From: Bacteroidia bacterium
GTDB lineage: Bacteria; Bacteroidota; Bacteroidia; AKYH767-A; OLB10
Assembly (NCBI GenBank): GCA_016788165.1
Contig: JAEUTH010000038.1
Location: forward strand, 62,001-126,000
DNA length: 64,000 bases
Direction of reading: 5' to 3'
Positions 47,801-62,833 of the stretch are shown piece after piece (the first letter of the stretch is position 1; every line of letters starts with the position of its first letter). A program made the translations under genes and the position numbers. The notes beneath the pieces are model-generated. The model did no database searches, was not told the DNA's origin, and saw nothing but the letters and a program-made list of their open reading frames with translations.

Positions 47801-50800
47801 AGTTATGGCCGAAGTAATATCAGGATAGTTGGTTGGGATTAAATAAGTACCACTTAAACCACCACCACATGAAAGCGTTGTAGCATTACCGGCTAACGGT
47901 GCCGAACTGGTAAAGTTATTGGCAACTACATGATAATAGTATGTTGTGGCACCAAATAAAGAACTTTGTGGTAAAGTATAAGTTGTACCGGTTGTGCCTG
48001 AAGTTGTAGAGCTAACCACACCTACTACTGTTGTAAACGGACCGCCAATATTTAACGAGCGATAAACAATAAAGCCCGATTCTCCAACTGAGTTATCATC
48101 CCAGGTTATATTAAAACTGGTTGTAGTTGCCGAATTAAAAGCAAAGTTTATAGGTGGTGCTAATGCTGCTGCAGCTATACCTTCCAACTCATCGGCACCA
48201 ATATCAGGGGCTGTGCCTGTACCGGTATATCCACCATTACCCTGGCGGGTTTCGTTGTCAAAGTCGTTAGTTATACCACTTATATTAGCAGCACCACTTT
48301 CAATGTTTGTAACAATAGATGGATCTATGTGTAAAAAGTTAGCAGCTGATCCGGTAGTGCTTAAAAATGTAGGGTTTTCCGTACCGGTATTTACATCGGC
48401 AGGTGTTACCCTTAATTTGTAAGCGGCAACATTTTGATCGCTATTGGTTCCATCATAAAATATCAAATTATTGGTACCAGGTGTACCGGCATACATCAGG
48501 TTATTATTTGAGGCGATAGCATGCGTACCTATAGCAGTTGATAACCTGCGATAAGCTGCTGTAAAACCTGTAGCACCATTGGGTGTTGATAGATTTACCA
48601 AAATATTATTTCGCAAGGTAAGTGTAGGCGTAGCTGATGCCGCAAGTGCACTGCTACCAAAAGCAGCACCACTACTGGTGGCATTCAGATGCACCGTATT
48701 ATACGAAACATGCATATTGGTACCTCCTGTAATATTTATACCATTAACCGGGTTAGCAGCATTTGCCACCGTAGCACGCAAATCGCCTATTATGTTATTA
48801 TAAACATTAACTACCGTACCGGCAGTAACAAAAATACCATTAACGCTTGAAGTGGCATTACTGCCCGACAAATTATAAATCTTATTATTATAAACACTTG
48901 TATTGCTTGCCCCGGTAACCGATAAACCACTAACAGCAGCACCAGCACTTGATGTTAAAGTATGTATGGTATGATTAAAAATATTTACAGCGGCCGATGT
49001 GTTCGAACAGGTTAACCCAACAACAGCACCACCTGTGCCGGTCGAGCTTAAATTATTTATGGTGTTTGATGAAATGGTTAAGGGGTTGGCATTGTTACCG
49101 CTTGCCCCAATACTTAAGCCTGTTATTGCTCCTTGTCCTGTAATATTGGTTATTGTATTATTAGAAACGGTGCCGTTGTTACCGCCCCAATAAAGATAAC
49201 TCATTACAGTGATGGCACTGGTACCACCTACCCAGTTGTTAAAAGTGTTACCAGTAACCGTTCGGCCATAAGCTATTGTAGCAAGACCATCGCTGTTACT
49301 AATACCATTTAAAGTTGTTGCACCGTTTACAGTTATATTAGAAAAATTGTTGTTTATATGACTAACACTTGCTGCGCCAATAGTTGACGAGCCCGAAGTC
49401 ATACAAGTTACGGTGCCCCCAATACCCGTTTTATTAAATGCCGTAACTATACTGTTATTCGAAATGGTTTGCGTTCCACCTACAGGTACTGTATAACTAT
49501 GAGCAATAAAAGTTACACTGCCTGTATTGCTTAATGTAAGATTGGTAAAGGTATTGCCATCAACGGTTTGGTGTAACGGTGTGCCCACTGCAGAAATTAA
49601 GGTTACTGCACCTGAAGCACCTGTGGCAGGAAATGTAATATTCTGTATGTTGTTATTACTAACCGAAGCTGTTGCTGTATTAGCTGCAGTTGAACGATTA
49701 ATTACCGTTAATGATTTGGTAGTAGTTCCGCTATAGGTGATACCATTTATGTTGTTCCCATTCACATTAACCACATTGCTTGCGGCTCCTGTTACTGCAA
49801 TACAAACAAAAGTACCGGTTGCTCCTGTACAGGTTACACCGCCTATTGTATTATTATTAATGTTAAGCGTACCAATGCCTGCCATGCCCGAACGAATGAC
49901 AGCATGATCAGAAGCTGAGGCCGAAGTGCTTGAAGATGTAAAATTAGTTATGGTATTACCATTTATGTTACAAAAGGTAGGTGCCGACTGAACCCAGATA
50001 GCAGTTAAAGCCGCTGTAGTTGCAGTACTCTTAGTTACACTTAGTGTATTGTTATTGATATTAATGGTATTACCATTAGCGCCACTCGAAGCCATTTCGC
50101 AATCAATTGTCCAATCTATTGCCGATGTAGATGCACCTCCTGTAATATTTATGGTATTGTTATTTACGTTAACACTTGCACCTGCTGAGGTGCCAAATAA
50201 AAATACACCTCTATTGGTAACGGGGTGGTTAACACCCGAACCATTGTTATTGTTTATAATGTTATATGAAATGTTTGCACCCCATTGATTGCTGTGATAC
50301 ACAGCAGCACATGCATTGGTTGCTCCCGTACCACCACCAAAGTTAATAATGGTGTTTCCGGTTGCTGCCGAATTGCCCCCAATATCATTATTCATATCGG
50401 CTAAAGTATAAGGCGAGGCATCGCCAAAACCCACCATCGAAATACCTGTATTTACATTTTGAATGGTATTACTGTAAAATTTATTGTTTGAACTTGCGCC
50501 ACTTACACTTGTTACAATGGTAACCGTAGTAGCAGCCGTAGGTGTACATGCAGCTAAGGCTATACCATTTGACCCGCTAAAAAACAAAGAACTGCTACCG
50601 GTTGTATTGTTTCGATTTAAGGTTATAACACAATTCATAATCGTGTTATTGTTGGCGCCATCTGTAGAACTGGCTTTAAACAAACCAACTGCATACTCCA
50701 TTTGCGTAGTTGGTGTAGTATTACCGGCCAGTTCGTTAAAGTTTATACCATCAATGGTAACATAGTCTGACCCATTTAAGCTCCACATACCATCAGGCGC

Positions 50801-51151
50801 AGCCGTATTGGCCAATGCCGTACCGGTGTAAGCAGTGATTACAGGATTTGCTCCTGCACCACTTTTCTGAAACACAATTTGATCGGTAACATTACCTGTG
50901 GCTGTTAAATTTAAGCGCGCTGTAAGTGCTTCGGTATGCCCTGCAGCAACGTTAAACACCACACCTCCCGCACCAACACCTTGGGCATTTAAGCTGTCAA
51001 CGGCCGATTTAATGGTTGGGTAGTTGCCTGATGGGATAGTTTGTGTGCCAGATATTTGGGCAAAAGCAACATTGCCTATAAAAAACAGTAGCAACGAAAA
51101 AATTAGCATGCAATTAGCAATACTACTACGATGGTAATAGTTAAATTTCAT
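35876..51151 (-). CDS. Giant modular surface protein with beta-helices, lectin-like domain, SprB repeats and T9SS tail (about 5091 residues)
   Basis: The start at 51151 (MKFNYYHRSS, signal ending NVAFAQ) is preferred; the frame stays open to 51370, but that part lies upstream of the likely promoter at 51242-51249. Residues 35-990 are right-handed beta-helix rungs (NTINITGGAS, NTITNITGQG). A fibronectin-III-like domain is at about 1000-1080 (SFNITWDDNSVGESGFIVYR). A second beta-helix is at about 1100-1900. Ig-like and beta-sandwich domains fill 1900-4200, including a legume-lectin-like module near 3057-3290 (NDFQIDFDLITSPGSNPAAD). About ten SprB-type units are at 4240-5000. The T9SS tail is VVYPNPTNGKVMVQF, ending EKLIVQ. 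At 15.3 kb without a break it is exceptionally long. Adhesion, gliding or prey/substrate contact is inferred. Confidence 0.92.
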   Translation of the reverse strand: MKFNYYHRSSIANCMLIFSLLLFFIGNVAFAQISGTQTIPSGNYPTIKSAVDSLNAQGVGAGGVVFNVAAGHTEALTARLNLTATGNVTDQIVFQKSGAGANPVITAYTGTALANTAAPDGMWSLNGSDYVTIDGINFNELAGNTTPTTQMEYAVGLFKASSTDGANNNTIMNCVITLNRNNTTGSSSLFFSGSNGIALAACTPTAATTVTIVTSVSGASSNNKFYSNTIQNVNTGISMVGFGDASPYTLADMNNDIGGNSAATGNTIINFGGGTGATNACAAVYHSNQWGANISYNIINNNNGSGVNHPVTNRGVFLFGTSAGASVNVNNNTINITGGASTSAIDWTIDCEMASSGANGNTININNNTLSVTKSTATTAALTAIWVQSAPTFCNINGNTITNFTSSSTSASASDHAVIRSGMAGIGTLNINNNTIGGVTCTGATGTFVCIAVTGAASNVVNVNGNNINGITYSGTTTKSLTVINRSTAANTATASVSNNNIQNITFPATGASGAVTLISAVGTPLHQTVDGNTFTNLTLSNTGSVTFIAHSYTVPVGGTQTISNNSIVTAFNKTGIGGTVTCMTSGSSTIGAASVSHINNNFSNITVNGATTLNGISNSDGLATIAYGRTVTGNTFNNWVGGTSAITVMSYLYWGGNNGTVSNNTITNITGQGAITGLSIGASGNNANPLTISSNTINNLSSTGTGGAVVGLTCSNTSAAVNIFNHTIHTLTSSAGAAVSGLSVTGASNTSVYNNKIYNLSGSNATSSVNGIFVTAGTVVNVYNNIIGDLRATVANAANPVNGINITGGTNMHVSYNTVHLNATSSGAAFGSSALAASATPTLTLRNNILVNLSTPNGATGFTAAYRRLSTAIGTHAIASNNNLMYAGTPGTNNLIFYDGTNSDQNVAAYKLRVTPADVNTGTENPTFLSTTGSAANFLHIDPSIVTNIESGAANISGITNDFDNETRQGNGGYTGTGTAPDIGADELEGIAAAALAPPINFAFNSATTTSFNITWDDNSVGESGFIVYRSLNIGGPFTTVVGVVSSTTSGTTGTTYTLPQSSLFGATTYYYHVVANNFTSSAPLAGNATTLSCGGGLSGTYLIPTNYPDITSAITALVTNGMSGPVILSLEQTYNGAAESSYPVVIGNNIGCLNPTNTLTIRPDATVTTPLDFACNNSTAGFDLNGCNYVTIDGRPGGVGTASMLRIINISTAGVAIRFINDASNNTVTYCDIQGQNTVSSPTLTTAGGVIFINSAHATTLGGNDNNTISYNKIHGTNTVPSTFPAIGIAAVGTTTTTNTYNDNCSIINNHIYDYFLAGSASTGIKVDVGNTAWNISSNRLFQTTALTHTAAVGHRGIWVTPNIGSISNAANGFTINNNYIGGNDANATGDYVVTSTSAITFMGLDISVGLGTATEIQGNTINKISFTTSSTATNAFSGIGIFNGNNNVGNTTANVIGDPTVNTVPYGITFTTTANLGGVMAIRASSAGNQNISNNMIGGIELRGNNTTVVPSFAGINYSGGGSAIINGNTIGSATLANSINISTSGATTTTNTADFLGVWVSGSAVTTTVSNNLIANLNNNFGGTGTSGNTLNGITINVGASNVSNNTIRNLNSFTQASAGGANSAISGIVYTSTTTPATIANNTIHSLNLLQPATSAGVTNVGLFYAGPTTGTNVIERNNIHSLSIASPTAAGGAISGMDIASGLITIKNNMVRLGYNEAGVSITTPCLVRGITKNAATSNIYHNSIFIGGSGVGTNTSNTYALIRTATAVDDWRNNICVNNRSNATTGGKHYAINLNSTATLTLNNNVYQADSVGGVFGFNGSADVAAYSLNWVTGDVSSYYSEPNYINATGDATTGDLHINTGSATIVEATGINIASVTNDIDNQTRSGLTPTDIGADAGNFISLVCSGKPDGGSAILASAGNVCVSGTKTLNLVSASSIPGITVQWMESATAGGPYTNVSGGTGATSYNYTTATLTSTTYYICVVTCSNGGDTAASSEVAVVVDNPQIVSTTPDSRCGTGSVTLCATGSPGTTINWFTNPTGGVPLSNPFSNIAITPASFNNDVVADGVGVNAIVGTTYPTIGMDGAQYTFIDNTFKYTSGNALPTCFMPTNNLMASATTSGLTYQLQSYTGNNAMSIANSSTGYTSPMANSGTITLTTPASYGVLKVLYESVANTPTTGFTVDAVITFTDASTQTISGNNVVNWFTAAAPAFSNVGRTSPTGAIQCGAQPNLFEMTLPISVANQSKLVQSVTFTIPTLLSGTTPSSINYFHAFALGGNAPQGNCLITPVLSNTTTFYASASTGGPNVNLGLASASPTATSGAGTTNFGVVFDAYSTFTLNTVKIYPVSATNASGTVTIDVINSAGAIIHSATVPVTGSPAASLTPAIVNLNFTIAPGTNYKLRPGSFTGITGLLFMPSGGPSNYGYPFVYPGVVSLNTSTLTAAPTNTARNDLYYYFFDWNISTGCESSRTPVVATITPPPALSVTPNLNACYNTYTALTITSPNGNYDSYTWSPVTNMYLDTLGTPYTANTNADTVYVLSTSVANIVYTCTGSNSAPPFCADTASVAVAFQQNASVATTATPNPSCAGQPVVLTASLGAPATVVLGTNNNATKIGGSNGNLYRTGTTLNLEMRTQYLITAAELSAAGLQAGAMNSVGFYVLTSSTPGVLSNFTLRLGHTTATALTATYQIGPFTDVWFAPTFTPVIGLNTHTFTTPFMWNGVDNVVIESCNVLTTGGSGTTLQTFTTPVQTNMANLVAGGCSAAAGGSTGFTNCRPVIEINGSTAPTATAYSWSDGSNVVGTTSPLTVNPTISTGYICTITANGCPYVSDTVNQIVNTLPTAPTASAPSTQCGYGVPTVSVTSTTGAPTPIFNWYSALTGGTLLQTGTSNTYTNAIGATTTFYVVEVNTNGCESNPRVAATANVSAYDSIYITSDTLTCEGTPVTFNVVKVGSLNSYTYTWTATPLPGSGVTGSPTGASQVFTPTTQGNYVYSVTGVDGLCTANATKIVTIYPGLSGSLSATQITSCNNLNGSITANVIGAGTVFSSDFTSPVIPGNMTYAGNDFTINGGVMQLTSSAAAKNGGVVITNTTGLANNDFQIDFDLITSPGSNPAADGFSYSYGPDVVELPTGTGSATVGTVVVPNTVNPENGSGTALKLAFDAYSNGANVEGIYLMYNTPVWNQTPASTGVIAHSTDVSWRATNLIGKTTHVTIKINGSGQVSLWLNNILIVNNQPLPAAYLSANKASWKHAFSSRTGALYQGTAIDNLTIQYNNFYEYSLNAGPWSTTNPIPASGVGVYTVDARYVAVPACSTNLGSVTINTPVFTTTTSASSVCAYGPVMPLLSVVPSFAGATYQWQISPANANAFVDISGATSATYTPLVSEITANTDFRCVILCSGTPIPGSPSVPVTITYDQPQVLTTLGGSRCGIGSVALNATASSGAGLSWYANATGGAPLGTGTTFNTPNISVTDTFYVAAGAGSSSENVASPNIGTSTFITATTGWGLRFTANSAATISSVTVRALSSSPGAASIQIKVSDLNDVVLYTGTLHNFTITNALADYVIPVNINVAPGNYKMGMTFTNITSMVRESGGVTFPYNAPSSAISITAGANGSAGAQTTSAYYWFYNWVISTGCSSTRTAVIATVTSAPTVTVSPNVIQCEGSSTVLTASSINDPNYTYTWNPGGFVGSTYLVTPAVTTTYTLTAVDSSGGANNGCQDIQTVTVTVTPNPVINSITATPGFVGQGDSSQLAVVATPFIQPTFASKYSLSSLTGLSYAPLSGGGITIINTDAQLTAGMGSVTQDDGGVLISIPFTFTYDGVAYNQITMSTNGWIAAGNFSTIDAVSSRAAGNLFTGTVPNQTMAAWFKDMGANFPLGTGSLRHGLTGADVYTFQWDNAVGSGFSDGSTNLISFQVSIYGPASIAPGRIEYLYGPQVNTLATAASIGIENSTGGTGNYINALTGTSNATTTSSAWPGVGNGYRFNPLPGSALTYSWLPSGALNNATINNPMAAPLTSTVYTVTVAESGTGCSATGTVSLQVAPKPKPFLNVGDTSLCSNIFEFYVRAADSAAYAGGWPLGTLFDWGIYGPGFPTTDSFIVVNSTAAVFVIVTLPPTLGNLTATTTTSTIDFGSVFTPVTYFVTDSVDCNGQSNGMVIGYIDSTFSGTPNYRWRWYASPSNTLLRDVTNAELVDTLSGLAPGDYYLVLTDHQGVAVPPYCTPDIFPVTVYEPAVLSATENIANHQNVLCNGQANGSVDIDINGGTQPYTYNWSNGSTVEDNSGLIIGTYTVTVTDLHGCSTSTSVTITEPLVLSVNCSVINNVSCFGGNNGVVNVASSGGTAPYSIVPTPSGLVAGTYTFVVTDANGCVDSCTATITEPALLEVTCSSTNSTCYEAHNATGSVSTTGGTLPYSYLWSNGSTTDNIMGLMPGTYTVTVTDANGCTALCSITVTQPAELIYKIIGSVNPTSSLPNSGSITTSTVGGTLPLSYMWNDGATTADRTGIPGGSYTATVTDANGCTSEITIELSYECGLTVVNQLVQQASCYQDNGIMTAIPSGGTSYTYQWLTTPVQTTATGTGLAYAFNSYCIITDVASGCTIIDTVVVPHSKGLKANFTVPTYAGGVHIRCYGGNDGSASVSVSGSSGPFTYLWSNGATTASLTGLSAGTYTVTITNGGCTLVSMVQLKQPALLTASATATPAGCGASNGTVTVNATGGKGAYTYSWDTSPVATTKTVTGLPAGTYTVTVGDANGCTATASATVSGLSGLTLTAVTTNANCYGGNNGSAIPTTSGGTAPYSYLWSNGATNKNQLALAAGTYTVTATASNGCTGTVSVTITQPTAMVAIPSASPAICNGSFTGTASVAVSGGTPPYTYSWNSAPIRTTATATGLKKGTYTCTITDSKGCLKFATAVVTEPPSIVLSISKTNVTIFGGNNGTATANVSGGVSPYAYLWSNGQTTQIASALVAGTYTVTVTDFNGCTKTKSINITQPVARLAFSQVTDVHSVVYPNPTNGKVMVQFDEAVLETVTVEIINVTGEQVYQTSLKVNTDSNLFELNLFTLSKGVYTIKYRTSHNQWHEKLIVQ
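36160..38430 (-). repeat. Coding array of SprB-type repeats in the larger giant gene
   Basis: About ten units ending in variants of GTYTVTVTDANGCT. The stretch 36160-37760 is colinear at protein level with 27560-29170 of the neighbouring gene, including the shared run FNSYCI-TD-GC-IIDTVVVPH. Confidence 0.85.
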
Positions 51152-51241
51152 CTTGAAGGGTTTTAAATTGTTCAAAGTAAATGATACAAATACCTTCTTA
51201 CGGTATTTGAAGGGGTTATATCTTGTAGTTAATGGGGATGC

Positions 51242-51249
51242 CAAAAGTA
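51242..51249 (-). promoter_or_regulatory. Candidate -7 box for the giant surface protein
   Basis: The reverse strand reads TACTTTTG (TAnnTTTG), with 90 nt between it and the preferred ATG at 51151. The 265-bp divergent region 51152-51416 is the only regulatory space shared with the two-component genes. Confidence 0.45.
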
Positions 51250-51416
51250 TATAAATGTATCTAACTTGAATTAAGTTTTTATCTACAACTTTCGATTTAA
51301 CATATCTAACGGTTAAATTGTTTCGGAATAGTTTAAAATCACAACTTTCATTCCTGTTAAAACTAAACATGCTAATTTTAAATTTAATTTGTCTTTAATT
51401 TTAAGGTTTATAAAAA

Positions 51417-52061
51417 ATGACACAAAAAAACATACACCTCTTAATTGCTGACGATCATGTGATTATTAGAAGGGGGTTGCGTTTTTTATTAGAAAGCATG
51501 ACACCTGCTTGTCAAATTGATGAAACAGATTCGCAAAGGGGAATCATTAATGCATTAACATCTAAAATATACACACATTTAATTTTAGATATGCAGATGC
51601 AGGATGGCAATCTGTTAGATATTATTTCAAACATTACCGGTAATTATCCCCAAATTCAGATAATGATTTATACCATGAATTCAGAAGATTTGTATGGCTT
51701 ACGGATGCTTAAATTAGGTGCTCATATTTTTCTTAATAAACAAACGCATGAAACCGATTTAAAACAGGCTTTGCAAGCATTTTTAAATAATCAACCTTAT
51801 GTAAGCAGCCATTTATCCGACTTAATAAATGACAATAAGAAAAGAAAAAACAAAGATGCTTTTGCCAGCCTTTCCGATAGAGAACTTACCGTGCTAAATA
51901 ATATTCTTGCAGGTAAGAGTTTAAAAGAAATTGCTATCAATCTCGACTTAAAAGCAAACACCGTTGCCACTTTTAAAGCCCGGATATTTGACAAATTAGG
52001 CGTTTCTAATCTGATTGACTTAAAAGCAGTAGTTGAAACGTATCAAAGAACCGGTAAATAA
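51417..52061 (+). CDS. Response regulator, NarL/LuxR type
   Basis: A 214-residue DNA-binding response regulator. The receiver has the acidic pair Asp12-Asp13 (IADDHVIIRRG), the phosphoacceptor Asp58 (LILDMQMQDG), Thr86 (YTMNS) and Lys108 (FLNKQ), so all phosphorelay residues are intact. The C-terminal LuxR-type helix-turn-helix begins LSDRELTVLNNILAGKSLKE and contains LKANTVATFKARIFDKLGV. It is followed after 7 nt by the sensor kinase gene, an evident operon. It is divergent from the 15-kb surface-protein gene, which makes that gene a plausible target (inference). Confidence 0.93.
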   Translation: MTQKNIHLLIADDHVIIRRGLRFLLESMTPACQIDETDSQRGIINALTSKIYTHLILDMQMQDGNLLDIISNITGNYPQIQIMIYTMNSEDLYGLRMLKLGAHIFLNKQTHETDLKQALQAFLNNQPYVSSHLSDLINDNKKRKNKDAFASLSDRELTVLNNILAGKSLKEIAINLDLKANTVATFKARIFDKLGVSNLIDLKAVVETYQRTGK

Positions 52062-52068
52062 AAGTAAC

Positions 52069-55000
52069 ATGCTTAAATGGTTGTGTCTGGTTCTTTTAAT
52101 AGCACTCTCAATAAATAATTTGAAGGGGCAAACAGGCTTTCATGTTTTGCATATTGATTCGCGCAAGGGTTTACCACAAAACCACATCCACTATATAACT
52201 TTTGATAAAAATGGTTTTATGTGGGGTTTAAGTGAGATGGGTATTTTTAGATATGATGGCATTCGGTTTACCGAATTTAAAGCCAATAAAAATTCGCAGC
52301 TATTAGATAATAACTATAGTGGTTTTATACAAATGTTTAATGGCGATTTAGCTATTGCCGATATACATGGTGGTGTTATTGAGATTGATTCGGCAAACAT
52401 TACAAAAGTATCCGGCTCAAACATTAACAAACATGAAGTTGTAAAAATAAATGGCCTGTTTCCCGACCTGAATACTTATTCAAGAATATTCAATGCAGAT
52501 AAAACCAATATAAATAAGGATGGTCAGATAGAACTGCCCTTAGTCTATACTTTTAACAAAAGGCAGCATCTGACTGCAAACAACCATAAAGTGTTTTTTT
52601 ATTTGGACAACAAACTATCAGACTCGATTACATTGCCTGATTCAAATTGCAATTGGATCTTTTTAAGCAATCGTTTATTCTATTTCAATAACTCAAATGA
52701 CCTTTTTGAATTAAAATTTGACGCTCCAAATTTTGTTGCAACACAACCCGTTTTTAGTGAAGCTTTAAAAAGAAAAAAAAACGATAAATTAAAAATATTT
52801 ACTAACGATGCTAAAGGCAGTTGCCTGCAAATAAACAACAGTGTTTACTATGTTACTATTGTAAACAATTTAATAGTAAGTAAACTGATAATAGATTCGT
52901 TACCGCAAAGAGTTGACATAACCAATATAATTTATTGCGATAAAAATAAGGCCGCAGTTGTTAGCACAACATCAACCGGAATTTTTATTTATAAAGCACA
53001 ACCTTTTAAAAGTATAATATATAACGGTGCTGACATTAATGCAACCAATTCCTTTTACAGTCAGGTGTATTTAGATAGTACAACCATATTAACCGACTGG
53101 AATCTGGAAGTAAACAGAAATGGAGCACAAAAATCGAAACGCAACATTCATCGCAATTATGAAGAAAACATTTTGCGTCACAATAATTTTCTTTACTACT
53201 GCCATGGTGATAGCCTATTAAAATTCGACTTAAAAACGCATACTAAAAAGTTAGTCAGTTACTCAAAACAAAGTCGGCCTTACACTTTTACAGTACATGC
53301 CGATTCGATAATTGTGGGCTATCGTAAAAAAATTTGTGTATTAAGGCATGATACTATTCAAACATTAATTGATTTTTCGAAGTACCGTTATAGTAATAAC
53401 CCATTCCGGATTTATGTACTTGATAAGGATCACTTGTTTTTTTGTGCTTATAAAGGTGCTTATATCTGTAATTTGCAAACACAAATTATTGACACATTAA
53501 AACCACTACAAAACCAACTGGTGCATAATGCAGAAATGCATCAAGGTTTTTTGATAATCGGCACTTATGCTAATGGTTTTTATCTTTATATAAACAAGCA
53601 GCTAGTAAAAATGCCGCTGGATGAAGCCGGTTATCTTGCAACTACAAACAGTTTTTTAATTGATAGCCAAAATAATATATGGATAGGGACTAATAAGGGC
53701 CTTTATAAAACGGATTTTAATACCTTAATAAAATACTTTTACGACAATACAACAACCGTTTACTACACATACTACAATGAAGATGACGGCATGCTTACGT
53801 CCGAATTTAACGGAGGATGCACTTCATCGGCACTGCAATTAAAAAATGGTTATGCCAGCATGGTTTCTATGAATGGCTTGGTATGGTTTAAGCCCGAGCA
53901 AATGCAACATGCTACACTTAATAACAATATATACATAGACAAAATTTGGTTTGATAATGCGCTTACCGATAAAGCACTTGAAACAATACCCAAACAAACG
54001 GAACATATAAATATTGAACTGGCAACCGCTTATTGGGGTCATCCTCAAAATTTACAGTTAGCGTATCGTATAAAAGGGTTTAGCAAAATTTGGAAACCAA
54101 TAGATGCCGAACGAAAATCTATTTACTTTTACAAACCGCCTGCAGGCAATTATGTTTTAGAAATCAGAAAATGTATTGGTAACAAAGCCAATGAATTTGC
54201 TTTACTTTCTATACCGTTTAGCGTAGAACAGAAACTTGTTGAGTCAAATATTTTTATTGTTGCAATATGCCTTGCTATTTTAACTTTCATTTTGGTGGTG
54301 GTAAAATTAGTTACTCAAAATATTCAACGTAAAAATAGACTACTTGAAAACAAAGTATTGCAACGTACAAATGAATTGCAAGTTGCAAACAACCAGCTAA
54401 AACAATCCATTGTAGCAAAAGATAAACTCATTTCCATTGTATCGCACGAAATTGTAACACCGCTTCGGTTTTTAGCAATGGTAGCCAAACAAACCGGCTC
54501 GAAACCCATGTCAGAAAAAAACTGGCTGCCGGCAATGAATGATATTAAAAATACCAGCGAAAGTTTATATAACAATGCGCAAAACATTCTGAACTGGATT
54601 AAACATCAGAACAAGCGTTTTAATGTTACAATAAACCATATTGCTTTAAGCGGCTTTTGTGATGAAATTACTACGGTATTTAACGAAATGGCGTTTGCTA
54701 AAAACATTCATTTTAAAAATGAAATTGCAGACGATACCATTATCAAATCAGATAAAAATATTTTAGGAATAATTGTAAACAACTTATTTAGCAATGCTGT
54801 AAAATTTACCGAAAATGGCACCATCACAATAACTTGCCAAATGCAAACCGAAAACTTTACGCTCACAATTACCGACACCGGAACCGGTATAAACCAACAA
54901 CAAATGAATCGGATTCACGGTATCATCCAAAAAAACAATACAGAGGTTTCGTTTCACTCCGATAGCAGTGGCAATAATGGCTTGGGGTATTTAATAATTG

Positions 55001-55092
55001 TTGATTTGCTGTCGCTTTTAAATGGCAGCATAGCTATAAGCAGTAAATTAAACGAAGGAACCAAAGTAACTTTAACATTACCTATACAGTAA
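52069..55092 (+). CDS. Sensor histidine kinase with periplasmic beta-propeller (Reg_prop/Y_Y_Y)
   Basis: The start at 52069 (MLKWLCLVLLIALS) gives a signal peptide; the frame is open slightly farther upstream inside the regulator gene. The 1007-residue product has a periplasmic two-component propeller (GLPQNHIHYITFDKNGFMWG, NNIWIGTNKGLYKTDFNTL), a Y_Y_Y-like domain (LAYRIKGFSKIWKP), a transmembrane helix near 735-760, a HisKA domain with phosphoacceptor His793 in VSHEIVTPLRF, and a HATPase with N-box NNLFSNAVKFTENG, G1 DTGTGI and G2 NGLGYLIIV. It has no receiver and no AraC domain, so it is not a hybrid HTCS. By family, the propeller may sense a glycan or another extracellular ligand. Confidence 0.92.
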   Translation: MLKWLCLVLLIALSINNLKGQTGFHVLHIDSRKGLPQNHIHYITFDKNGFMWGLSEMGIFRYDGIRFTEFKANKNSQLLDNNYSGFIQMFNGDLAIADIHGGVIEIDSANITKVSGSNINKHEVVKINGLFPDLNTYSRIFNADKTNINKDGQIELPLVYTFNKRQHLTANNHKVFFYLDNKLSDSITLPDSNCNWIFLSNRLFYFNNSNDLFELKFDAPNFVATQPVFSEALKRKKNDKLKIFTNDAKGSCLQINNSVYYVTIVNNLIVSKLIIDSLPQRVDITNIIYCDKNKAAVVSTTSTGIFIYKAQPFKSIIYNGADINATNSFYSQVYLDSTTILTDWNLEVNRNGAQKSKRNIHRNYEENILRHNNFLYYCHGDSLLKFDLKTHTKKLVSYSKQSRPYTFTVHADSIIVGYRKKICVLRHDTIQTLIDFSKYRYSNNPFRIYVLDKDHLFFCAYKGAYICNLQTQIIDTLKPLQNQLVHNAEMHQGFLIIGTYANGFYLYINKQLVKMPLDEAGYLATTNSFLIDSQNNIWIGTNKGLYKTDFNTLIKYFYDNTTTVYYTYYNEDDGMLTSEFNGGCTSSALQLKNGYASMVSMNGLVWFKPEQMQHATLNNNIYIDKIWFDNALTDKALETIPKQTEHINIELATAYWGHPQNLQLAYRIKGFSKIWKPIDAERKSIYFYKPPAGNYVLEIRKCIGNKANEFALLSIPFSVEQKLVESNIFIVAICLAILTFILVVVKLVTQNIQRKNRLLENKVLQRTNELQVANNQLKQSIVAKDKLISIVSHEIVTPLRFLAMVAKQTGSKPMSEKNWLPAMNDIKNTSESLYNNAQNILNWIKHQNKRFNVTINHIALSGFCDEITTVFNEMAFAKNIHFKNEIADDTIIKSDKNILGIIVNNLFSNAVKFTENGTITITCQMQTENFTLTITDTGTGINQQQMNRIHGIIQKNNTEVSFHSDSSGNNGLGYLIIVDLLSLLNGSIAISSKLNEGTKVTLTLPIQ

Positions 55093-55119: not shown

Positions 55120-56163
55120 CTACTTTACTTCTTTAAGCATTAATAAATACGTTGGAAAATGGTCGCTATAACCTGCTATGTAAATATTAAAATCGTAGGT
55201 GCGTTTTGCATAACCTTTATATCGGCCTGTTTGCTGCAACATAAACTGCTTCTTAAAAATCATTGCTTTCTGAAAATGAAACCCTGTTTGTTTGGTATCT
55301 AACCAGGCTTTTGAAACAATAATCTGATCAAATAAATTCCAGGCATCGTTATAAGCTAAGGTGCCAATACCATTTTTGTATAAATCAACCCAGGGATTAA
55401 AAAACCCTCCTTCTTTTACCTTTTCCAGATCACCGGTTGCTCCAATTACATGCGTAACACTGGGGCTAACCGGGTCGTCATTTAAATCGCCCATGAGTAC
55501 AATTTTGGCTTGTAAATTTACTTTCAATATCGAATCCATTTTTGCCTTGGCAACACTTGCAGCTAATGCACGCCATGGTGCGCTGGCCTCTTCGCCTCCC
55601 CGTCTGGATGGCCAATGGTTAACAAACACGTGCATGTCTTCCCCATCAAGCAAGCCATTAACGTATAAAATATCGCGCGTTTTGCGGGCTGTGCCATCAT
55701 CATTTTTTAATGGCACATTAAGGCTTTCGCTATAAAGTGGTTTAAAATATTTTGGGTTGTACAACATAGCCACATCCACACCACGTTCGTCAGGCGAATG
55801 GTAATGCACGGTTTGCCAGTTTCGTTTTTTAAGTTTATGTGTTTGCGCCAAATCTTTAAGTACTTGCTCATTTTCAACTTCGGCAACGCCCATTATTGCA
55901 GCACCATCGGGTGTATAGTCGGTTCCTATTTGTGATAGGACATCTGATAAATGCTCCAACTTATCCAGATATACTTTTGGGGTATAATTTTTTTGACCTT
56001 CGGGTGTAAACTCTTCATCATTTACCAACGGATCATTAATCGTATCGTATAAGTTTTCTAAATTATAAAAGCCGATAACGGCTACCTTATACTTTTTATC
56101 CTGGCCACTAGCAATCAGTACCAGAAAAAATCCAAAAAACAATAAACAATTACGTAACAACAT
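55120..56163 (-). CDS. Secreted endonuclease/exonuclease/phosphatase-family protein
   Basis: A 347-residue exported protein of the EEP superfamily, which includes DNase I-like nucleases and phosphodiesterases. The signal peptide is MLLRNCLLFFGFFLVLIASG. The core motifs are in order: FYNLENLYDT (Asn), MGVAEVEN (metal-binding Glu), VNHWPSRRGG (His), LMGDLNDDP (Asp/Asn) and the catalytic GYSDHFP near the C-terminus. All expected metal and catalytic residues are present. It is divergent from the TonB receptor gene, with which it may form a nucleic-acid or phosphate scavenging locus (inference). The promoter box is at 56180-56187. Confidence 0.9.
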   Translation of the reverse strand: MLLRNCLLFFGFFLVLIASGQDKKYKVAVIGFYNLENLYDTINDPLVNDEEFTPEGQKNYTPKVYLDKLEHLSDVLSQIGTDYTPDGAAIMGVAEVENEQVLKDLAQTHKLKKRNWQTVHYHSPDERGVDVAMLYNPKYFKPLYSESLNVPLKNDDGTARKTRDILYVNGLLDGEDMHVFVNHWPSRRGGEEASAPWRALAASVAKAKMDSILKVNLQAKIVLMGDLNDDPVSPSVTHVIGATGDLEKVKEGGFFNPWVDLYKNGIGTLAYNDAWNLFDQIIVSKAWLDTKQTGFHFQKAMIFKKQFMLQQTGRYKGYAKRTYDFNIYIAGYSDHFPTYLLMLKEVK

Positions 56164-56179
56164 ATTTAGGTATTTGCAG

Positions 56180-56187
56180 CAAACATA
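56180..56187 (-). promoter_or_regulatory. Candidate -7 box for the EEP-family gene
   Basis: The reverse strand reads TATGTTTG (TAnnTTTG), with 16 nt between it and the ATG at 56163. Confidence 0.5.
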
Positions 56188-56325
56188 TAAAAGCCATTAC
56201 ATTGAACTAAAAAATTTTTGTATAATCTGGCAGCTGCTAATTCTTATCAATATCATCTTGTTTTATTAAGGTTTTGGTAACCATATTTAATATTACTTTG
56301 CCGCCCATTTAACTGATTTGAATTT

Positions 56326-59091
56326 ATGTTTAAAAAATACTTGCTATTAATTTTAGGGCTTTTGGTTTTTGAAACCCTATATGCGCAAAATGCATTGTTA
56401 AAAGGCGTTTTGATAGACGAAGAACATAACACGATTATTACCAAAGCCACCGTTAGTTTAAGGGGCACATCCTATGTTGCCGAAGTAAATGCCAATGGTT
56501 ATTTTGAAATAAAAGAGTTGCCTTACGGTAGCTATACCTTGCTTATTGAAGCCAATGCTTTTATTGATTATAATAAAGATGTGGTTATAAATAAAGCTGT
56601 GGTTGATTTAGGTAATTTGGCTTTACAACATGCTAACCCACAAGAAACCACACAAGATATACCGGTAGTTACCCTCACCGAAAGCGATTTAAAAGACAAT
56701 GGTTCGCAAAACGTTGCAAGCAGTTTATCGGCAAGTCGTGATGCATTTTTATCGGCCATTACTTTTTCGTTTTCAGTGGCACGTTTTCAGGCACGTGGCT
56801 ATGATAATGATAACGTACCCACGTATATGAATGGCGCACCCATGCAGGACTTAACCTCGGGACGTACACAATTTTTTACCTGGACAGGGTTAAATGATGT
56901 AATGCGTGGCCGCGAAAATACGTATGGCTTGGCCGCAGGCACGTATGCATTTGGTGGTGTTGGCGGATCGTTTTTTATTGACTCGCGCGCCTCACATCAA
57001 CGCAAACAATTTCAAGTGAGTTTTGCCAAAGGCAACCGTAGCTACGACAATCGTTTAATGGCTACATACGGTAGCGGTTTGTTAAAAGGTGGTTGGAGCG
57101 TGGCTGCAACTTTTTCGCGCAGGTGGGCTGACGAAGGTTATGTAAAAGGTACTTTTTATGATGGTACTTCTTACTTCTTATCCGTTGAAAAAATAATAAA
57201 CAACAAACACTTTCTTTCGCTTACGGGCTTTGGCGCACCGGTAACTAATGGCCGTACATCGCCCGCTGTACAAGAAATGCTCGACCTTGCCGGCACTAAC
57301 TATTACAATGCCAACTGGGGTTATCAAAACGGCAAAGTGCGTAACGTAAGTGTAGCACAAAATCACTTACCTACAGCCATATTAAGTTGGGAATGGAAAC
57401 CAACCCCAACATCAAACCTGATGACTGCCATAAGCACCGTTAACGGTAAAAGTAAAGTATCTGCTTTCGACTGGTTTAATGCAACCGATCCGCGAGCCGA
57501 TTTTTATCGCAAATTGCCCAGTTTTATTGAAGACAGTGCAACGGCTGCTCAGGTTGCGCAACTGTTACGCGATAACGAAGCCGAGCGTCAAATTAAATGG
57601 GATGAATTATATCACACCAACTATAACAGCATTGCCACCATTTATAATGTTGATGGCATTGCCGGAAATAACGTTACCGGTGTACGTTCCAGGTATATTG
57701 TAGAAGATCGCATCACCAAAATAAATAAACTTAATTTCAATACATACTATAACAACATTATAAACGACAAGCTAACACTTACTGCCGGTGCTACACATCA
57801 AAGGCAAAACAGTGCTTTTTACAAGGAAGTTAACGATTTATTGGGAGGCGAATTTTATGTTGATTACAATCAGTTTGCCGAGCAAGATTATCCGGGCAAC
57901 ACCGATGCATTACAAAACGATTTAAATAACCCCAACCGCATTTTAAAAGTAGGCGATAAGTTTGGCTACCATTATGTAGCACATGTAAATCGAACCAATG
58001 CATGGATACAACCCCAGTTAAAACTTAATAAGGTTGATTTATTTATTGCATTAGATGTTTCGCATACAGCATTTTATCGCGATGGCAAAGTACGTAACGG
58101 TATTTTTAGCGAAAACTCTTATGGCAAATCCGATAAACAAAGCTTTACCAATGCAGCCATTAAAGGCGGTGCTACTTATAAAATTAATGGGCGTAATTAT
58201 GTATTTGCCAATGTAGCCACGCTTACACGTGCACCCCTTTTCGAAAACGCATTTGTATCGGCACGCACACGCAACAGTATTATTGACAACTTAACGGACG
58301 AAAAAATAACTTCGGTTGAAGGTGGTTATATGCTTAAAGCGCCCAAACTTAAAGCACGCGTTGTTGGTTACTACACGCAATTTAACGATGGCGTTAATGT
58401 GATGAGTTTTTATCATGACGATTTCCGAACGTTTGTAAACTACTCGTTAACCAATATTGATAAAGTTAACACCGGTTTAGAATTGGCAGTTGATGCAAAT
58501 TTAGGCAAAGGTTTTAGCGCTGTTGCTGTAGCTTCTATAGGCCAAAACCGTTATACATCGCGGCAGTTTGGAACGCTTACACAAGACAACAGCGACACCG
58601 TACTTGCCAGCGAAACTATTTACATTAAAAATTTTAAAGTTGGTGGTACACAAGCCGCTTATATGTTGGGCATATCATATCGCTCACCTAAATTTTGGTT
58701 CTTAAGTTTAAATGTAAATTATTTCGATAAAATTTTTGTAGAAGCCAACCCGGCTCGCAGAACACAAGCTGCTGTTGATTTAGTGGACCCACAAAGCGAA
58801 AACTGGGACAAAATTATTAACCAACAACAACTTGACGGACAACTAACAGTTGATTTCTTTGGTGGCTATTCTTACAAGCTAAATAATAAATTTAAAAACT
58901 TAAAACGTCAATCGTTTATTGTTCTAAACATTGGTGTAAACAACTTGCTAAACAACACCGATTTCAGAACCAGTGGTTTCGAGCAATTACGCTACGACTT
59001 TAATGATAAAAACCCCGAAAAATTTCCGGCAAAATATTTTTACAGTTTCGGAACAACCTTTTTTGCCAACCTCACTTTACGTTTCAATTAA
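56326..59091 (+). CDS. TonB-dependent outer-membrane receptor
   Basis: A 921-residue outer-membrane receptor. The signal peptide ends at LYAQ (21). Residues 22-100 are a CarboxypepD_reg-like domain (LLKGVLIDEEHNTIITKATV). The plug follows (PVVTLTESDLKDNG, VASSLSASRDAFLSAITFSF, ARGYDNDNVPTYMNGAPMQD). The rest is a 22-strand type barrel (LKARVVGYYTQFNDGVNVMS, FGTTFFANLTLRFN) ending in an aromatic-rich strand. No SusD gene follows; the next gene is a DUF5689 lipoprotein 33 nt downstream. The substrate is unknown; the nuclease-like neighbours suggest products of nucleic-acid or phosphodiester breakdown. A TATTACTTTG near-match lies at 56291-56300. Confidence 0.92.
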   Translation: MFKKYLLLILGLLVFETLYAQNALLKGVLIDEEHNTIITKATVSLRGTSYVAEVNANGYFEIKELPYGSYTLLIEANAFIDYNKDVVINKAVVDLGNLALQHANPQETTQDIPVVTLTESDLKDNGSQNVASSLSASRDAFLSAITFSFSVARFQARGYDNDNVPTYMNGAPMQDLTSGRTQFFTWTGLNDVMRGRENTYGLAAGTYAFGGVGGSFFIDSRASHQRKQFQVSFAKGNRSYDNRLMATYGSGLLKGGWSVAATFSRRWADEGYVKGTFYDGTSYFLSVEKIINNKHFLSLTGFGAPVTNGRTSPAVQEMLDLAGTNYYNANWGYQNGKVRNVSVAQNHLPTAILSWEWKPTPTSNLMTAISTVNGKSKVSAFDWFNATDPRADFYRKLPSFIEDSATAAQVAQLLRDNEAERQIKWDELYHTNYNSIATIYNVDGIAGNNVTGVRSRYIVEDRITKINKLNFNTYYNNIINDKLTLTAGATHQRQNSAFYKEVNDLLGGEFYVDYNQFAEQDYPGNTDALQNDLNNPNRILKVGDKFGYHYVAHVNRTNAWIQPQLKLNKVDLFIALDVSHTAFYRDGKVRNGIFSENSYGKSDKQSFTNAAIKGGATYKINGRNYVFANVATLTRAPLFENAFVSARTRNSIIDNLTDEKITSVEGGYMLKAPKLKARVVGYYTQFNDGVNVMSFYHDDFRTFVNYSLTNIDKVNTGLELAVDANLGKGFSAVAVASIGQNRYTSRQFGTLTQDNSDTVLASETIYIKNFKVGGTQAAYMLGISYRSPKFWFLSLNVNYFDKIFVEANPARRTQAAVDLVDPQSENWDKIINQQQLDGQLTVDFFGGYSYKLNNKFKNLKRQSFIVLNIGVNNLLNNTDFRTSGFEQLRYDFNDKNPEKFPAKYFYSFGTTFFANLTLRFN

Positions 59092-59124
59092 TATAAACAT
59101 TTGCTTAGTATAAAATCACATTGC

Positions 59125-60534
59125 ATGAAAAGCTTTATTAAATCATTAACCGGTTTGCTATTTATTTTAATGATGTCGGGTGTTACATCCTGTGTAAAAA
59201 AAGAATATGACGAACCACCAACCGATGGTACCAACCCCAACATTACAGTTACGCATACCATTGCCCAAATAAAAGCAATGTATGCCGGCACACCTTTGCG
59301 TATCGACTCCGATTATGTTATAAGTGGTGTGGTAATAGCCGATGATAAATCGGGCAATTTTTATAAATCTGTAGTCATTCAAGACTCAACAGCCGGTATC
59401 GCTATCAGGTTAGATCAGAGTGATTTTTACACCGATTTTCCGGCAGGCAGGTTGTTATTCATCAAATGTAAAGGCCTATATATTGGCGATTATGGCGGCC
59501 TGATTCAAATGGGAGGTTATGTAGATAACAGCGGCAGTACACCCAGTGTTGAACCGATACCCAATTCGCTTATCAGCAGTATTATTTTAAAAGGTACGTA
59601 TAATATGCCCGTTACACCAAAGGTGGTTACCATCAATCAGCTTACCAGCAACTTACAAAACACGTTAATTCAGCTTAACGATGTACAGTTTGCAAACAGC
59701 GATTTGGGTAAAACCTATGCCGATGCAGTAAATCAAATGTCGGCCAACCGCACTGTTGAAGACTGTAATGGCAATACAACCATATTGCGCAGCAGTGGCT
59801 TTGCATTGTTTGCATCACAAGTATTGCCTGCTAAAAAAGGTAAATTGGTTGCAGTGTATCAGGAGTTTAATGGCGATGCACAATTGCTGATACGCGATGT
59901 AACTGATGTAATGTTTGATTCGGCACGCTGTGGCTCTACACCACCAACGGGCGCTATGGATTTAAATGACTTTAGAGCTGCATTTGCCACCAGTAGTACC
60001 TGCCCTTCGGTTACAGTTAAAGGCATTGTTATTTCCGACAGAGCTAATGGCAATATAGACAGCAAAAACTTAGTAATACAAGATAGTACCGGTGGTATAA
60101 CGGTGCGGTTTACAGCAGCACATAGTTTTAATAAAGGCGATGAGGTAGAAGTAGTAGCGGCAGGCTTATCGTTTAATGAGTTTAATGGCTTACTTCAAAT
60201 AAACAATGCCCCGTTAACTAATGCTACATTTAAAAGCAGTGGCAATAATGTTACACCACGCATTGCAACATTTGCACAAATAAATACCAATGCCGAGGCA
60301 TGGGAATCAACGCTAATTCAAATAAATACAGTATCGTTTCCGTCAAGTGGTGGCAATTATTCAGGCACCGTTACATTAACCGATGCATCGGGCACCATGC
60401 CATTATACACGCGTACCGGAGCCACTTTTGCAAATACAGCATATCCCAATACCGGTACACACAGTGTAACAGCCGTATTATACCCATTTAATGGGCCACA
60501 GCTAACCATACGCAGCACTACAGATGTGCAATAA
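59125..60534 (+). CDS. DUF5689 lipoprotein with two OB-like modules
   Basis: A 469-residue lipoprotein from the ATG at 59125; the frame is open to 59101, but only a TTG is there. The signal MKSFIKSLTGLLFILMMSGV ends in TSC, an acceptable lipobox. The DUF5689-type region (about 35-265) includes DYVISGVVIADDKSGNFYKS and VIQDSTAGIAIRL. A second copy follows (about 280-390): VTVKGIVISDRANGNIDSKN and VIQDSTGGITVRF. Both look like OB-fold beta-barrels. It follows the TonB receptor by 33 nt, in the place a SusD would take, so it is probably a surface partner of the receptor. The ligand is not known. Confidence 0.88.
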   Translation: MKSFIKSLTGLLFILMMSGVTSCVKKEYDEPPTDGTNPNITVTHTIAQIKAMYAGTPLRIDSDYVISGVVIADDKSGNFYKSVVIQDSTAGIAIRLDQSDFYTDFPAGRLLFIKCKGLYIGDYGGLIQMGGYVDNSGSTPSVEPIPNSLISSIILKGTYNMPVTPKVVTINQLTSNLQNTLIQLNDVQFANSDLGKTYADAVNQMSANRTVEDCNGNTTILRSSGFALFASQVLPAKKGKLVAVYQEFNGDAQLLIRDVTDVMFDSARCGSTPPTGAMDLNDFRAAFATSSTCPSVTVKGIVISDRANGNIDSKNLVIQDSTGGITVRFTAAHSFNKGDEVEVVAAGLSFNEFNGLLQINNAPLTNATFKSSGNNVTPRIATFAQINTNAEAWESTLIQINTVSFPSSGGNYSGTVTLTDASGTMPLYTRTGATFANTAYPNTGTHSVTAVLYPFNGPQLTIRSTTDVQ

Positions 60535-60549
60535 ATAGCAACACTTAAT

Positions 60550-60582
60550 AAGAAAAGCGCGTCAAATTGATGCGCTTTTCTT
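60550..60582 (+). terminator. Rho-independent terminator after the receptor/DUF5689 unit
   Basis: A perfect 11-bp stem (AAGAAAAGCGC / GCGCTTTTCTT) with an 11-nt loop, ending in a T-rich arm. It separates the following secreted PLD-like gene, which therefore has its own promoter or depends on read-through. Confidence 0.85.
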
Positions 60583-60619
60583 TTGAATACATTCTTGTTA
60601 CACTTACTATATAGGACTA

Positions 60620-62833
60620 ATGACTATTAAAAAAAATTTTACGGCTCTTTTCTTGCTGTTACAAACCTTTGCCCATGCACAAAGTATTAATGTGGTGCGT
60701 AGTATGCCAACAGGCAGTACGGTTACCGTATCGGGTATTGTAACCAACGGTGCTGAGTTTGGCAATAACACACGCTATCTGCAAGATGCTACAGCAGGTA
60801 TAAACGGCTTTAGCAACAGTTTAAGCAATGTACAGCGTGGCGATGAAGTAACACTAACGGGTGTGCTATACGATTTTAATGGTTTACTCGAGCTTTCGCC
60901 TGTATCGTTAGTGGTTGTAAATTCGAATGGTAACACATTACCACAACCGGTATCAATTACACCTACACAAATGGGCGAAACCTACGAGTCGCAATTGGTA
61001 CAAATTCAAAATGCTGTTTTTACCAATGGGGGTCAAACATTTAATGGAAGTACAAATTACACTTATAGCGCCAATGGCCAATCCGGTACCATACGCATAA
61101 ATGGCAACAGCAATTTAGTGGGCACTATAATACCTACACAACCTGTTAGTATTACCGGCATTTGCTCACAGTTTTTTGCAAACTATCAGCTATTACCGCG
61201 CGATGTTAGCGATATTAGTTTATCGAGCAGTTTAATAATGACTCAGTTACCCGAAGCATCCAACATCAGCACCACAGGCTTTAGGGTATCGTGGCAAACC
61301 AATTTACTGCCAGCACAATCGTACATTGTTTATGGTAAAACACCTGCTTTAGAATTGGGTATGGCACCTGCAATAGCAGGAACCACCAGCGAAGTGTTTG
61401 TAACCGGTGCCATGCCCAGCGAATTGTATTACATGCGTTGTTTTTCGGTTTTAGGTACCGATACCGCTGCAAGCGCTGTGGGTGTTTTTATAACTCAATC
61501 GGTAAGCAGTGGCAAAACCATTTGTTACTTTAATAAGAGTGTTGATAACAGTGTATCCACAACAACGCCAGCCATTACATTACCTAATACCATTGACGAT
61601 ACTTTAATCGCATATATCAATCGTGCCAAACAAAGTATTGATGTAGCCATATATAATTTTAATCAAACCAACCTGAGCGATATTGCCGGTGCGTTAAACA
61701 ATGCTTACACAAGCGGCAAAACCGTGCGCTTAATTTATAACAGCAATACCAGCAATACAGCTTTAACTTTATTAAATCCCGGCATTAATTTAATAGGTAG
61801 CCCCAATGCACCGGGCTATGGCATTATGCACAATAAATTTGTAGTTATTGATGCTTATTCGAACAATGCAAACGATGCTTTGGTATGGACTGGTAGCACC
61901 AACTGGACTGAAGGACAGATTAATGATGATGCCAATAATGTAATAATTATTCAGGATAAAAGTTTGGCTATTGCTTATACATTAGAGTTTAATGAAATGT
62001 ATGGCAGCCCTACATCAACGCCTAATACAACTGCTGCTAAATTTGGTTTCGATAAAGGTGACAATACACCGCATGAATTTGTAGTTGGTGGTAAGCGTTT
62101 GCAGTGTTATTTCAGCCCAACTGATAATGTAAACAACAGGATTATTGAAACATTAAATACAGCACAATCAACCTGCTATTTTGCATTGCTGTCGTTTACA
62201 CGTTTCGATGTTGCTTCTACGATTGATGTTTTAACACAGCAAATATTTTTAACGGCTGGCATCATTGATGATTCGTCAGGCAGTGCCAGTACTGCTTATA
62301 ATATTATGAGTCCGGTTATGGGCAATAAATTGCAAGTATATAACCATGCCATTCATACAGGCGTTATGCATCATAAATATGCCATTATAGATGAAAGTGC
62401 AGTTAACAGCGATCCACAAGTATTAACCGGTTCGCATAACTGGAGTAGCTCGGCAACGCAACGTAATGATGAGAACACTGTAATTGTGCATGATGCTACA
62501 ATTGCCAATCAGTATTATCAGGAGTTTTACAAACGGTTTTATGAGAACGGTGGCGTTTTGGCAATAGATAATAATAATAGCCTGTTACAAAGTTTTATAC
62601 TGTATCCCAATCCTTCGAACGGTACATTTAAACTTCAGGTTAATTTAGCTCAAGTTTCAAATATCAAAGTAACTGTTATTGATATGCATGGCCGTGTGGT
62701 ATTTCAGAATGAAACAGAAACAACTGAAAAAATCTGGCAGCAAAATTTAACTTTAAATGTAACAGCCGGCATATACGTAGTTAAAGTAACAGCCGGAACC
62801 GAAGTGCTTACACAAAAATTATTAGTTCAATAA
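60620..62833 (+). CDS. T9SS-secreted phospholipase-D-superfamily protein (nuclease-like)
   Basis: A 737-residue secreted protein. The signal peptide ends at TFAHAQ. Residues 22-200 are an OB-like module as in the upstream DUF5689 protein (STVTVSGIVTNGAEFGNNTR, LQDATAGINGFS). A fibronectin-III-like domain is at about 210-290 (GFRVSWQTNLLPAQSYIVYG). Two PLD catalytic HKD motifs follow: HNKFVVID (His404, Lys406, Asp411) with GSTNW, and HHKYAIID (His584, Lys586, Asp591) with GSHNW. The T9SS type A tail is LYPNPSNGTFKLQV, ending QKLLVQ. Small two-HKD proteins of this kind include the Nuc-type endonucleases; phospholipase activity is the main alternative. It is likely released or surface-attached. 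Confidence 0.9.
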   Translation: MTIKKNFTALFLLLQTFAHAQSINVVRSMPTGSTVTVSGIVTNGAEFGNNTRYLQDATAGINGFSNSLSNVQRGDEVTLTGVLYDFNGLLELSPVSLVVVNSNGNTLPQPVSITPTQMGETYESQLVQIQNAVFTNGGQTFNGSTNYTYSANGQSGTIRINGNSNLVGTIIPTQPVSITGICSQFFANYQLLPRDVSDISLSSSLIMTQLPEASNISTTGFRVSWQTNLLPAQSYIVYGKTPALELGMAPAIAGTTSEVFVTGAMPSELYYMRCFSVLGTDTAASAVGVFITQSVSSGKTICYFNKSVDNSVSTTTPAITLPNTIDDTLIAYINRAKQSIDVAIYNFNQTNLSDIAGALNNAYTSGKTVRLIYNSNTSNTALTLLNPGINLIGSPNAPGYGIMHNKFVVIDAYSNNANDALVWTGSTNWTEGQINDDANNVIIIQDKSLAIAYTLEFNEMYGSPTSTPNTTAAKFGFDKGDNTPHEFVVGGKRLQCYFSPTDNVNNRIIETLNTAQSTCYFALLSFTRFDVASTIDVLTQQIFLTAGIIDDSSGSASTAYNIMSPVMGNKLQVYNHAIHTGVMHHKYAIIDESAVNSDPQVLTGSHNWSSSATQRNDENTVIVHDATIANQYYQEFYKRFYENGGVLAIDNNNSLLQSFILYPNPSNGTFKLQVNLAQVSNIKVTVIDMHGRVVFQNETETTEKIWQQNLTLNVTAGIYVVKVTAGTEVLTQKLLVQ

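Follow-up and report, generated by a model that had tools for sequence, protein, structure and literature searches.

Here we examine a four-gene locus in a stretch of DNA from a member of the Bacteroidia (assembly GCA_016788165.1, contig JAEUTH010000038.1, positions 62,001 to 126,000 of the forward strand), the whole of which, at its full length of 64,000 nucleotides, is referred to below as the window, and we propose that the conserved core of the locus takes part in DNA uptake during natural transformation. The locus encodes an enzyme of the EEP (DNase I-like) family, a TonB-dependent receptor, a DUF5689 lipoprotein and a protein with two phospholipase D (PLD) domains that is secreted through the type IX secretion system (T9SS) (Table 1). 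A first-pass annotation, made from the letters alone, had placed these four genes together, and all are present by Pfam; two corrections to its arrangement proved necessary, namely that the EEP gene is divergent and not part of a single operon, and that the T9SS protein also carries DUF5689. The EEP gene, on the minus strand, is divided from the receptor gene by 162 bp, in which no complete Bacteroidota promoter consensus was found, and does not share an operon with the other genes; the receptor and DUF5689 genes are 33 bp apart. The 85-bp gap between the DUF5689 and PLD genes holds a terminator-like hairpin of -21.6 kcal/mol (z -5.05; none of 200 shuffles was equally stable), which a separate pattern scan did not report and which argues that the PLD gene is probably transcribed apart. 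The core of the locus is the trio of the EEP gene and the divergent receptor-DUF5689 pair.

Table 1. Features of the locus, with positions in the window.
Feature	Position	Strand	Evidence
EEP-family gene (PF19580)	55120-56163	-	Pfam match
EEP/receptor divergent intergenic region, 162 bp	56164-56325	.	no full Bacteroidota promoter consensus found
TonB-dependent receptor gene	56326-59091	+	Pfam matches; receptor tree
DUF5689 lipoprotein gene	59125-60534	+	PF18942; invariant lipobox Cys
Terminator-like hairpin, DUF5689/PLD gap	60550-60582	+	folding energy vs shuffles
T9SS-secreted DUF5689 + two-PLD protein gene	60620-62833	+	Pfam matches; two HKD motifs

The receptor (921 aa) matches CarbopepD_reg_2 (3e-9) and, just under the Pfam cut-off, the Plug domain (1.7e-4), and gives a single match within its own genome. 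The lipoprotein (469 aa when read from the start codon ATG at 59125) carries two copies of DUF5689 (PF18942, E 1.5e-103), and no SusD family was among its Pfam matches at E values up to 0.1. Its lipobox cysteine, at alignment residue 23, is followed by VKKEYDE and is invariant in 23 of 23 aligned sequences, most of which have acidic residues after it; such residues fit export to the cell surface. A profile search of the DUF5689 alignment against solved structures gave a sole match, to a DUF4955 protein through its C-terminal part (4e-5), and an OB fold for this domain is conjectural. A control protein of Bacillus subtilis, for which the nuclease YhcR is a candidate, also matches DUF5689. A single-sequence structure prediction of the lipoprotein reached a confidence (pLDDT) of 33 and was not used.

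The EEP protein (347 aa; PF19580, Exo_endo_phos_3, E 5e-117) has, judged by eye, an N-terminal signal peptide and lacks a lipobox and a T9SS tail, and is predicted to be a soluble periplasmic nuclease. All 21 aligned sequences share residues N34, E97, H183, D226, N228, D334 and H335, with catalytic roles that we presume from those of DNase I; a profile search of this alignment against solved structures gave no match at 1e-3. Two genomes have a further, distinct EEP-family gene beyond the DUF5689 gene (L073:4929-5897; L078:12463-13437), such that EEP genes flank the pair on both sides. The T9SS protein (737 aa) combines PLDc_2 matches in two stretches (7e-32) with its own DUF5689 domain (PF18942, E 5e-14) and a type A sorting tail (Por_Secre_tail, 1e-12). 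The two intact HKD motifs described by the earlier annotation begin at residues 404 (HNKFVVID...GSTN) and 584 (HHKYAIID...GSHN), giving the signature HxK(x)4D...GSxN twice. The protein matches MitoPLD, NucT and Nuc, with an NCBIfam NucT score below the cut-off, and this resemblance suggests nucleic acid without settling it. The description of an importer and a surface lipoprotein beside two phosphodiesterase-family proteins is supported.

In a full-text literature search, DUF5689 led to a single paper, a transposon screen of Riemerella anatipestifer (PMC8459023; statements on this and the other articles cited here refer to the available parts of each), which describes the adjacent genes RA0C_RS04915 (receptor-like) and RA0C_RS04920 (DUF5689). 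Unmarked deletion of either gene gave zero transformants, and in the model put forward there DNA is bound by RS04920, passes through RS04915 and becomes single-stranded by the action of 'an unidentified protein' (PMC8459023). An R. anatipestifer contig was located by the comEC primer printed in PMC8383284, and its locus has the order EEP(-)|receptor(+)-DUF5689(+), the same as in the window, with identities of 36% for the EEP protein (1e-85), 30% for the receptor (2e-124) and 34% for the lipoprotein (3e-36). The DUF5689 gene is the only one found in the R. anatipestifer genome and lies ~7.5 kb from the comEC primer site, which fits RA0C_RS04920; the locus tags were assigned via family, order and distance from comEC, not via annotation. 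A receptor tree sets 19 orthologues, including those of the window and Riemerella, apart from 10 paralogues with a support of 100/100. By identity, tree and adjacency, the receptor is orthologous to RA0C_RS04915 and the adjacent lipoprotein to RA0C_RS04920. A separate clade of TonB receptors (L080-L089), 23-30% identical and without an adjacent DUF5689 gene, is represented in part of these genomes and also in two from outside the class. Transformation loss is the sole phenotype bearing on cargo that was found for the orthologous pair (PMC8459023), and the nucleic-acid cargo that the first-pass annotation had suggested is probably right.

The distribution of the trio was followed in 41 genomes, comprising the organism's own and 40 relatives. 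The receptor occurs in 29 of these, in a single copy that is either full or split. All 29 also have DUF5689 outside the PLD protein, as does 1 of the 12 others (a fragment, in a genome 85% complete), and the EEP gene is present in 28 of the 29 and 2 of the 12. G007, the one genome with a receptor and no EEP gene, has its receptor at the end of a contig; of the two with an EEP gene and no receptor, G008 is 88% complete and G024 79%. Seven genomes of 92% completeness or more (G003, G027, G028, G030, G031, G033 and G036) are without receptor, EEP gene and lipoprotein alike, and two of these, G003 and G036, come from families that otherwise mostly carry the set. Across a phylum-wide sample of 158 genomes the receptor was found in 24 and the EEP gene in 25: both in 23, the receptor only in 1, the EEP gene only in 2 and neither in 132. 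The cut-offs for this sample (receptor E<1e-80; EEP >450 bits) were picked after viewing the score gaps, and 12 of the 21 rows of the EEP profile come from its genomes, with unlinked copies outside the profile also exceeding 450 bits; Fisher p values (6e-7, 4e-9 and 3e-24) take no account of relatedness, and we place no weight on them. Many genomes without the receptor have distant EEP relatives (about 205-400 bits), so that the family at large is not specific to transformation and only its high-scoring group co-occurs.

Of the 23 other receptor loci of the phylum sample, 22 have an adjacent DUF5689 gene and 15 an adjacent and divergent EEP gene. When 13 genomes with an EEP-less locus were searched, 12 held one copy elsewhere and G020 fragments only; the unlinked copies in G078 and G148 have an internal stop in the match, and the G148 match is also weaker. 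A neighbour count over 45 loci (excluding the contig-edge or short loci L007, L040, L042, L048 and L050-L055) gave the receptor in 45, by construction since the loci were selected by it, DUF5689 in 44, EEP in 32, the next commonest neighbour in 10 and PLD in 5, a recurrence of the first three families beyond chance. A conserved neighbourhood is thus formed by three of the four families and does not include the PLD protein, whose gene adjoins DUF5689 only in those 5 loci, from three genera, and whose relatives are full-length or nearly so in 11 of the 41 genomes. The PLD protein is best seen as an accessory outside the core, and is predicted to be a nuclease at the surface or released. A PLD/T9SS protein of 50% identity, whose match contains a single in-frame TGA, was also observed (G033:C457:2127-4298) in a genome without receptor or EEP gene.

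These counts bear on whether the locus serves nutrition, with extracellular nucleic acid being degraded and oligonucleotides imported for phosphorus, nitrogen or nucleosides, much as the first-pass annotation had envisaged in proposing a polysaccharide-utilisation-like feeding or phosphate-scavenging system. The anatomy of receptor, surface lipoprotein and exported phosphodiesterase folds does recall a polysaccharide-utilisation locus, and the PLD protein resembles NucT, which is implicated in both purine salvage and transformation in Helicobacter pylori (PMC5714352). Yet the families recurring in at least 5 of the 45 loci, assessed from their first residues, included no recognisable nucleotidase, phosphatase or nucleoside transporter, and the PLD protein is linked in only 5 of the 45. 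In R. anatipestifer, moreover, losing the orthologous pair abolishes transformation (PMC8459023), and removal of phosphate lowers, and does not raise, transformation (PMC8383284). No test of growth on DNA was found in the literature, and the two roles could coexist. We found no support for feeding or scavenging and regard it as unlikely, genetic exchange being the more likely purpose of the locus.

A role for the EEP enzyme is suggested by the competence protein ComEC, which has 718 aa here and 586 aa in Riemerella and carries DUF4131 and Competence domains in both, with no Pfam match to Lactamase_B in either. The nuclease motif, searched as H.[HD].DH after the Competence domain, occurs in none of the 32 complete copies from genomes that have both receptor and EEP gene, nor in the single copy with the receptor only (G148) or the 4 from EEP-only or incomplete genomes (G008, G024, G175 and G128); not counted were G014 (truncated) and G156 (lacking an intact open reading frame), and ComEC was taken from 12 of the 28 relatives with both genes. 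The metallo-beta-lactamase domain of ComEC has been described as the strand-degrading nuclease, and pneumococcus, in which it is likely inactive, uses EndA (PMC12455585). With ComEC of the carriers lacking the motif, another nuclease is needed if one strand must be degraded, and the EEP enzyme is the best candidate for this strand processing, an assignment we put at slightly less than even odds.

Conversely, the EEP enzyme might limit transformation by destroying incoming DNA in the periplasm, the balance being set by the divergent promoter region. Vibrio is known to have secreted nucleases of inhibitory effect, and the EEP gene is divergent, not co-transcribed, adjacent in 15 of the 23 sampled loci and placed elsewhere in the genome in others. 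Its near-strict co-occurrence with the receptor and their joint absence, even in genera nested among carriers, fit a partner better, as does a ComEC that is without its strand-degrading domain; we therefore think a limiting role unlikely.

Taken together, we propose, with a probability of about 0.63, that the trio makes up those parts of a natural-transformation machinery which take DNA across the outer membrane and through the periplasm independently of a pilus. The lipoprotein, proposed to be the surface DNA-binding partner of the receptor, would capture extracellular double-stranded DNA; the TonB-energised receptor, proposed as an outer-membrane DNA channel, would pass it into the periplasm; the EEP nuclease would cut or strip one strand there; and ComEC, without a nuclease domain of its own, would move the remaining strand to the cytoplasm, where it would recombine. 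In some genera the T9SS PLD protein may additionally trim DNA at the surface. Gene order, orthology, co-occurrence, the intact EEP residues and the absence of the nuclease motif from ComEC were computed here, and by analogy with R. anatipestifer we infer that receptor and lipoprotein have the same role in this organism and that DNA passes through the receptor. In R. anatipestifer, both tonBA and tonBB mutants show reduced transformation (PMC8383284).

Several observations weigh against this proposal. The transformation requirement of the receptor and lipoprotein has been shown in R. anatipestifer only, and Flavobacterium johnsoniae, reported to hold homologues (PMC8459023), could not be transformed in the conditions of the test reported (PMC7965970). 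The effects of TonB mutations are broad, and that of tonBB is ascribed by its authors to iron uptake (PMC8383284). In the available text of PMC8459023, the EEP homologue (assigned to RS04910 from gene order) is mentioned only for its transcript level and is absent from the genes hit among 3000 mutants; our search of the open literature, which covered neither subscription papers nor preprints, found no paper giving the EEP gene a transformation role. The ComEC motif is also absent from all 21 in-class genomes examined that are without the trio, so that its loss belongs to the class and not to the locus; out of class it is present in 9 of 9 genomes with neither gene and in 6 of 12 with a distant EEP relative. 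ComEC itself occurs in 37 of the 41 relatives and 158 of 158 genomes of the phylum sample, and HHH_3 in 41 of 41; being present with or without the trio, neither discriminates. Finally, the Riemerella lipoprotein (L026:12387-13796) fits the NCBIfam M949_1556 family (590.8 bits, cut-off 475), which has been linked to lipopolysaccharide (LPS), antigenicity and pathogenicity (PMC12566107, PMC4976936), and the lipoprotein may accordingly have another role or be pleiotropic; that of the window scores 174.7 bits against NCBIfam NF052645, below the subfamily cut-off of 475.

This last link raises the possibility that receptor and lipoprotein serve mainly surface assembly, in LPS or antigen display, and that transformation loss is an envelope side effect, consistent with the report of M949_1556 among LPS-synthesis genes (PMC4976936). 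A DNA pathway better accounts for the conserved nuclease-fold partner, the receptor fold and the fact that transformation is lost completely without either gene, and DUF5689 is also fused to PLD domains and matched by the B. subtilis control protein, such that we consider surface assembly improbable. The two sets of M949_1556 phenotypes, transformation on the one hand and LPS, antigenicity and pathogenicity on the other, were not joined in the available literature.

Beside the locus, 51417-55092 (+) encodes a large Reg_prop/Y_Y_Y sensor kinase together with a response regulator of the LuxR type; neither had a relative in the other receptor loci by BLAST, and they are thus probably not part of the locus. 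Further away lie two giant open reading frames, at 35876-51370 (-; 5164 aa) and 27272-35458 (-; 2728 aa), the former a repeat-rich, adhesin-like surface protein whose end resembles, by eye, a T9SS sorting tail.

The locus bears on how DNA passes the outer membrane in Gram-negative bacteria without a clear competence pilus, and it carries in distant relatives of Riemerella the same pair that is required there. For the conversion of double- to single-stranded DNA, which the Riemerella screen (PMC8459023) assigned to no named gene, it points at one conserved gene, and the conserved EEP partner, with a testable role, and the accessory PLD protein are the new content of this work. We raise only tentatively, and with the odds leaning against it, the broader proposition that a TonB-powered, pilus-free transformation machine, with the EEP enzyme replacing the missing nuclease domain of ComEC, is widespread in the sampled class beyond the family of Riemerella. 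If true, a common route of transformation may be available to many environmental Bacteroidota, with consequences for their gene flow and genetic tractability.

Among known systems, SusC/SusD loci share with the window a TonB receptor gene followed by a surface lipoprotein gene with a secreted hydrolase nearby, and differ in that the lipoprotein here matched DUF5689 and not a SusD family in Pfam; nor were the conserved, co-transcribed enzymes of Sus-like loci found, as only the divergent EEP gene recurs widely and the PLD gene, rarely present, lies behind a hairpin. H. pylori NucT (PMC5714352) is similarly an exported PLD-fold nuclease, implicated in DNA scavenging and, mildly, in transformation, but is a periplasmic, membrane-associated dimer with a single PLD domain, whereas the window protein joins two PLD domains to DUF5689 and a T9SS tail. 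The likeness to pneumococcal EndA (PMC12455585), proposed here, is that of a separate exported nuclease beside a ComEC without an active metallo-beta-lactamase domain, although EndA is a membrane-bound beta-beta-alpha-metal nuclease and the EEP protein, a member of the DNase I-like family, is predicted to be soluble. In R. anatipestifer, the lipoprotein has one DUF5689 and a choice-of-anchor J domain where that of the window has two DUF5689 copies, no PLD relative was found in the locus, and the available text of PMC8459023 assigns the EEP gene no role; RA0C_RS04915 and RA0C_RS04920 nevertheless share with the window an adjacent, orthologous receptor and DUF5689 lipoprotein, with an EEP gene diverging from them at the same place.

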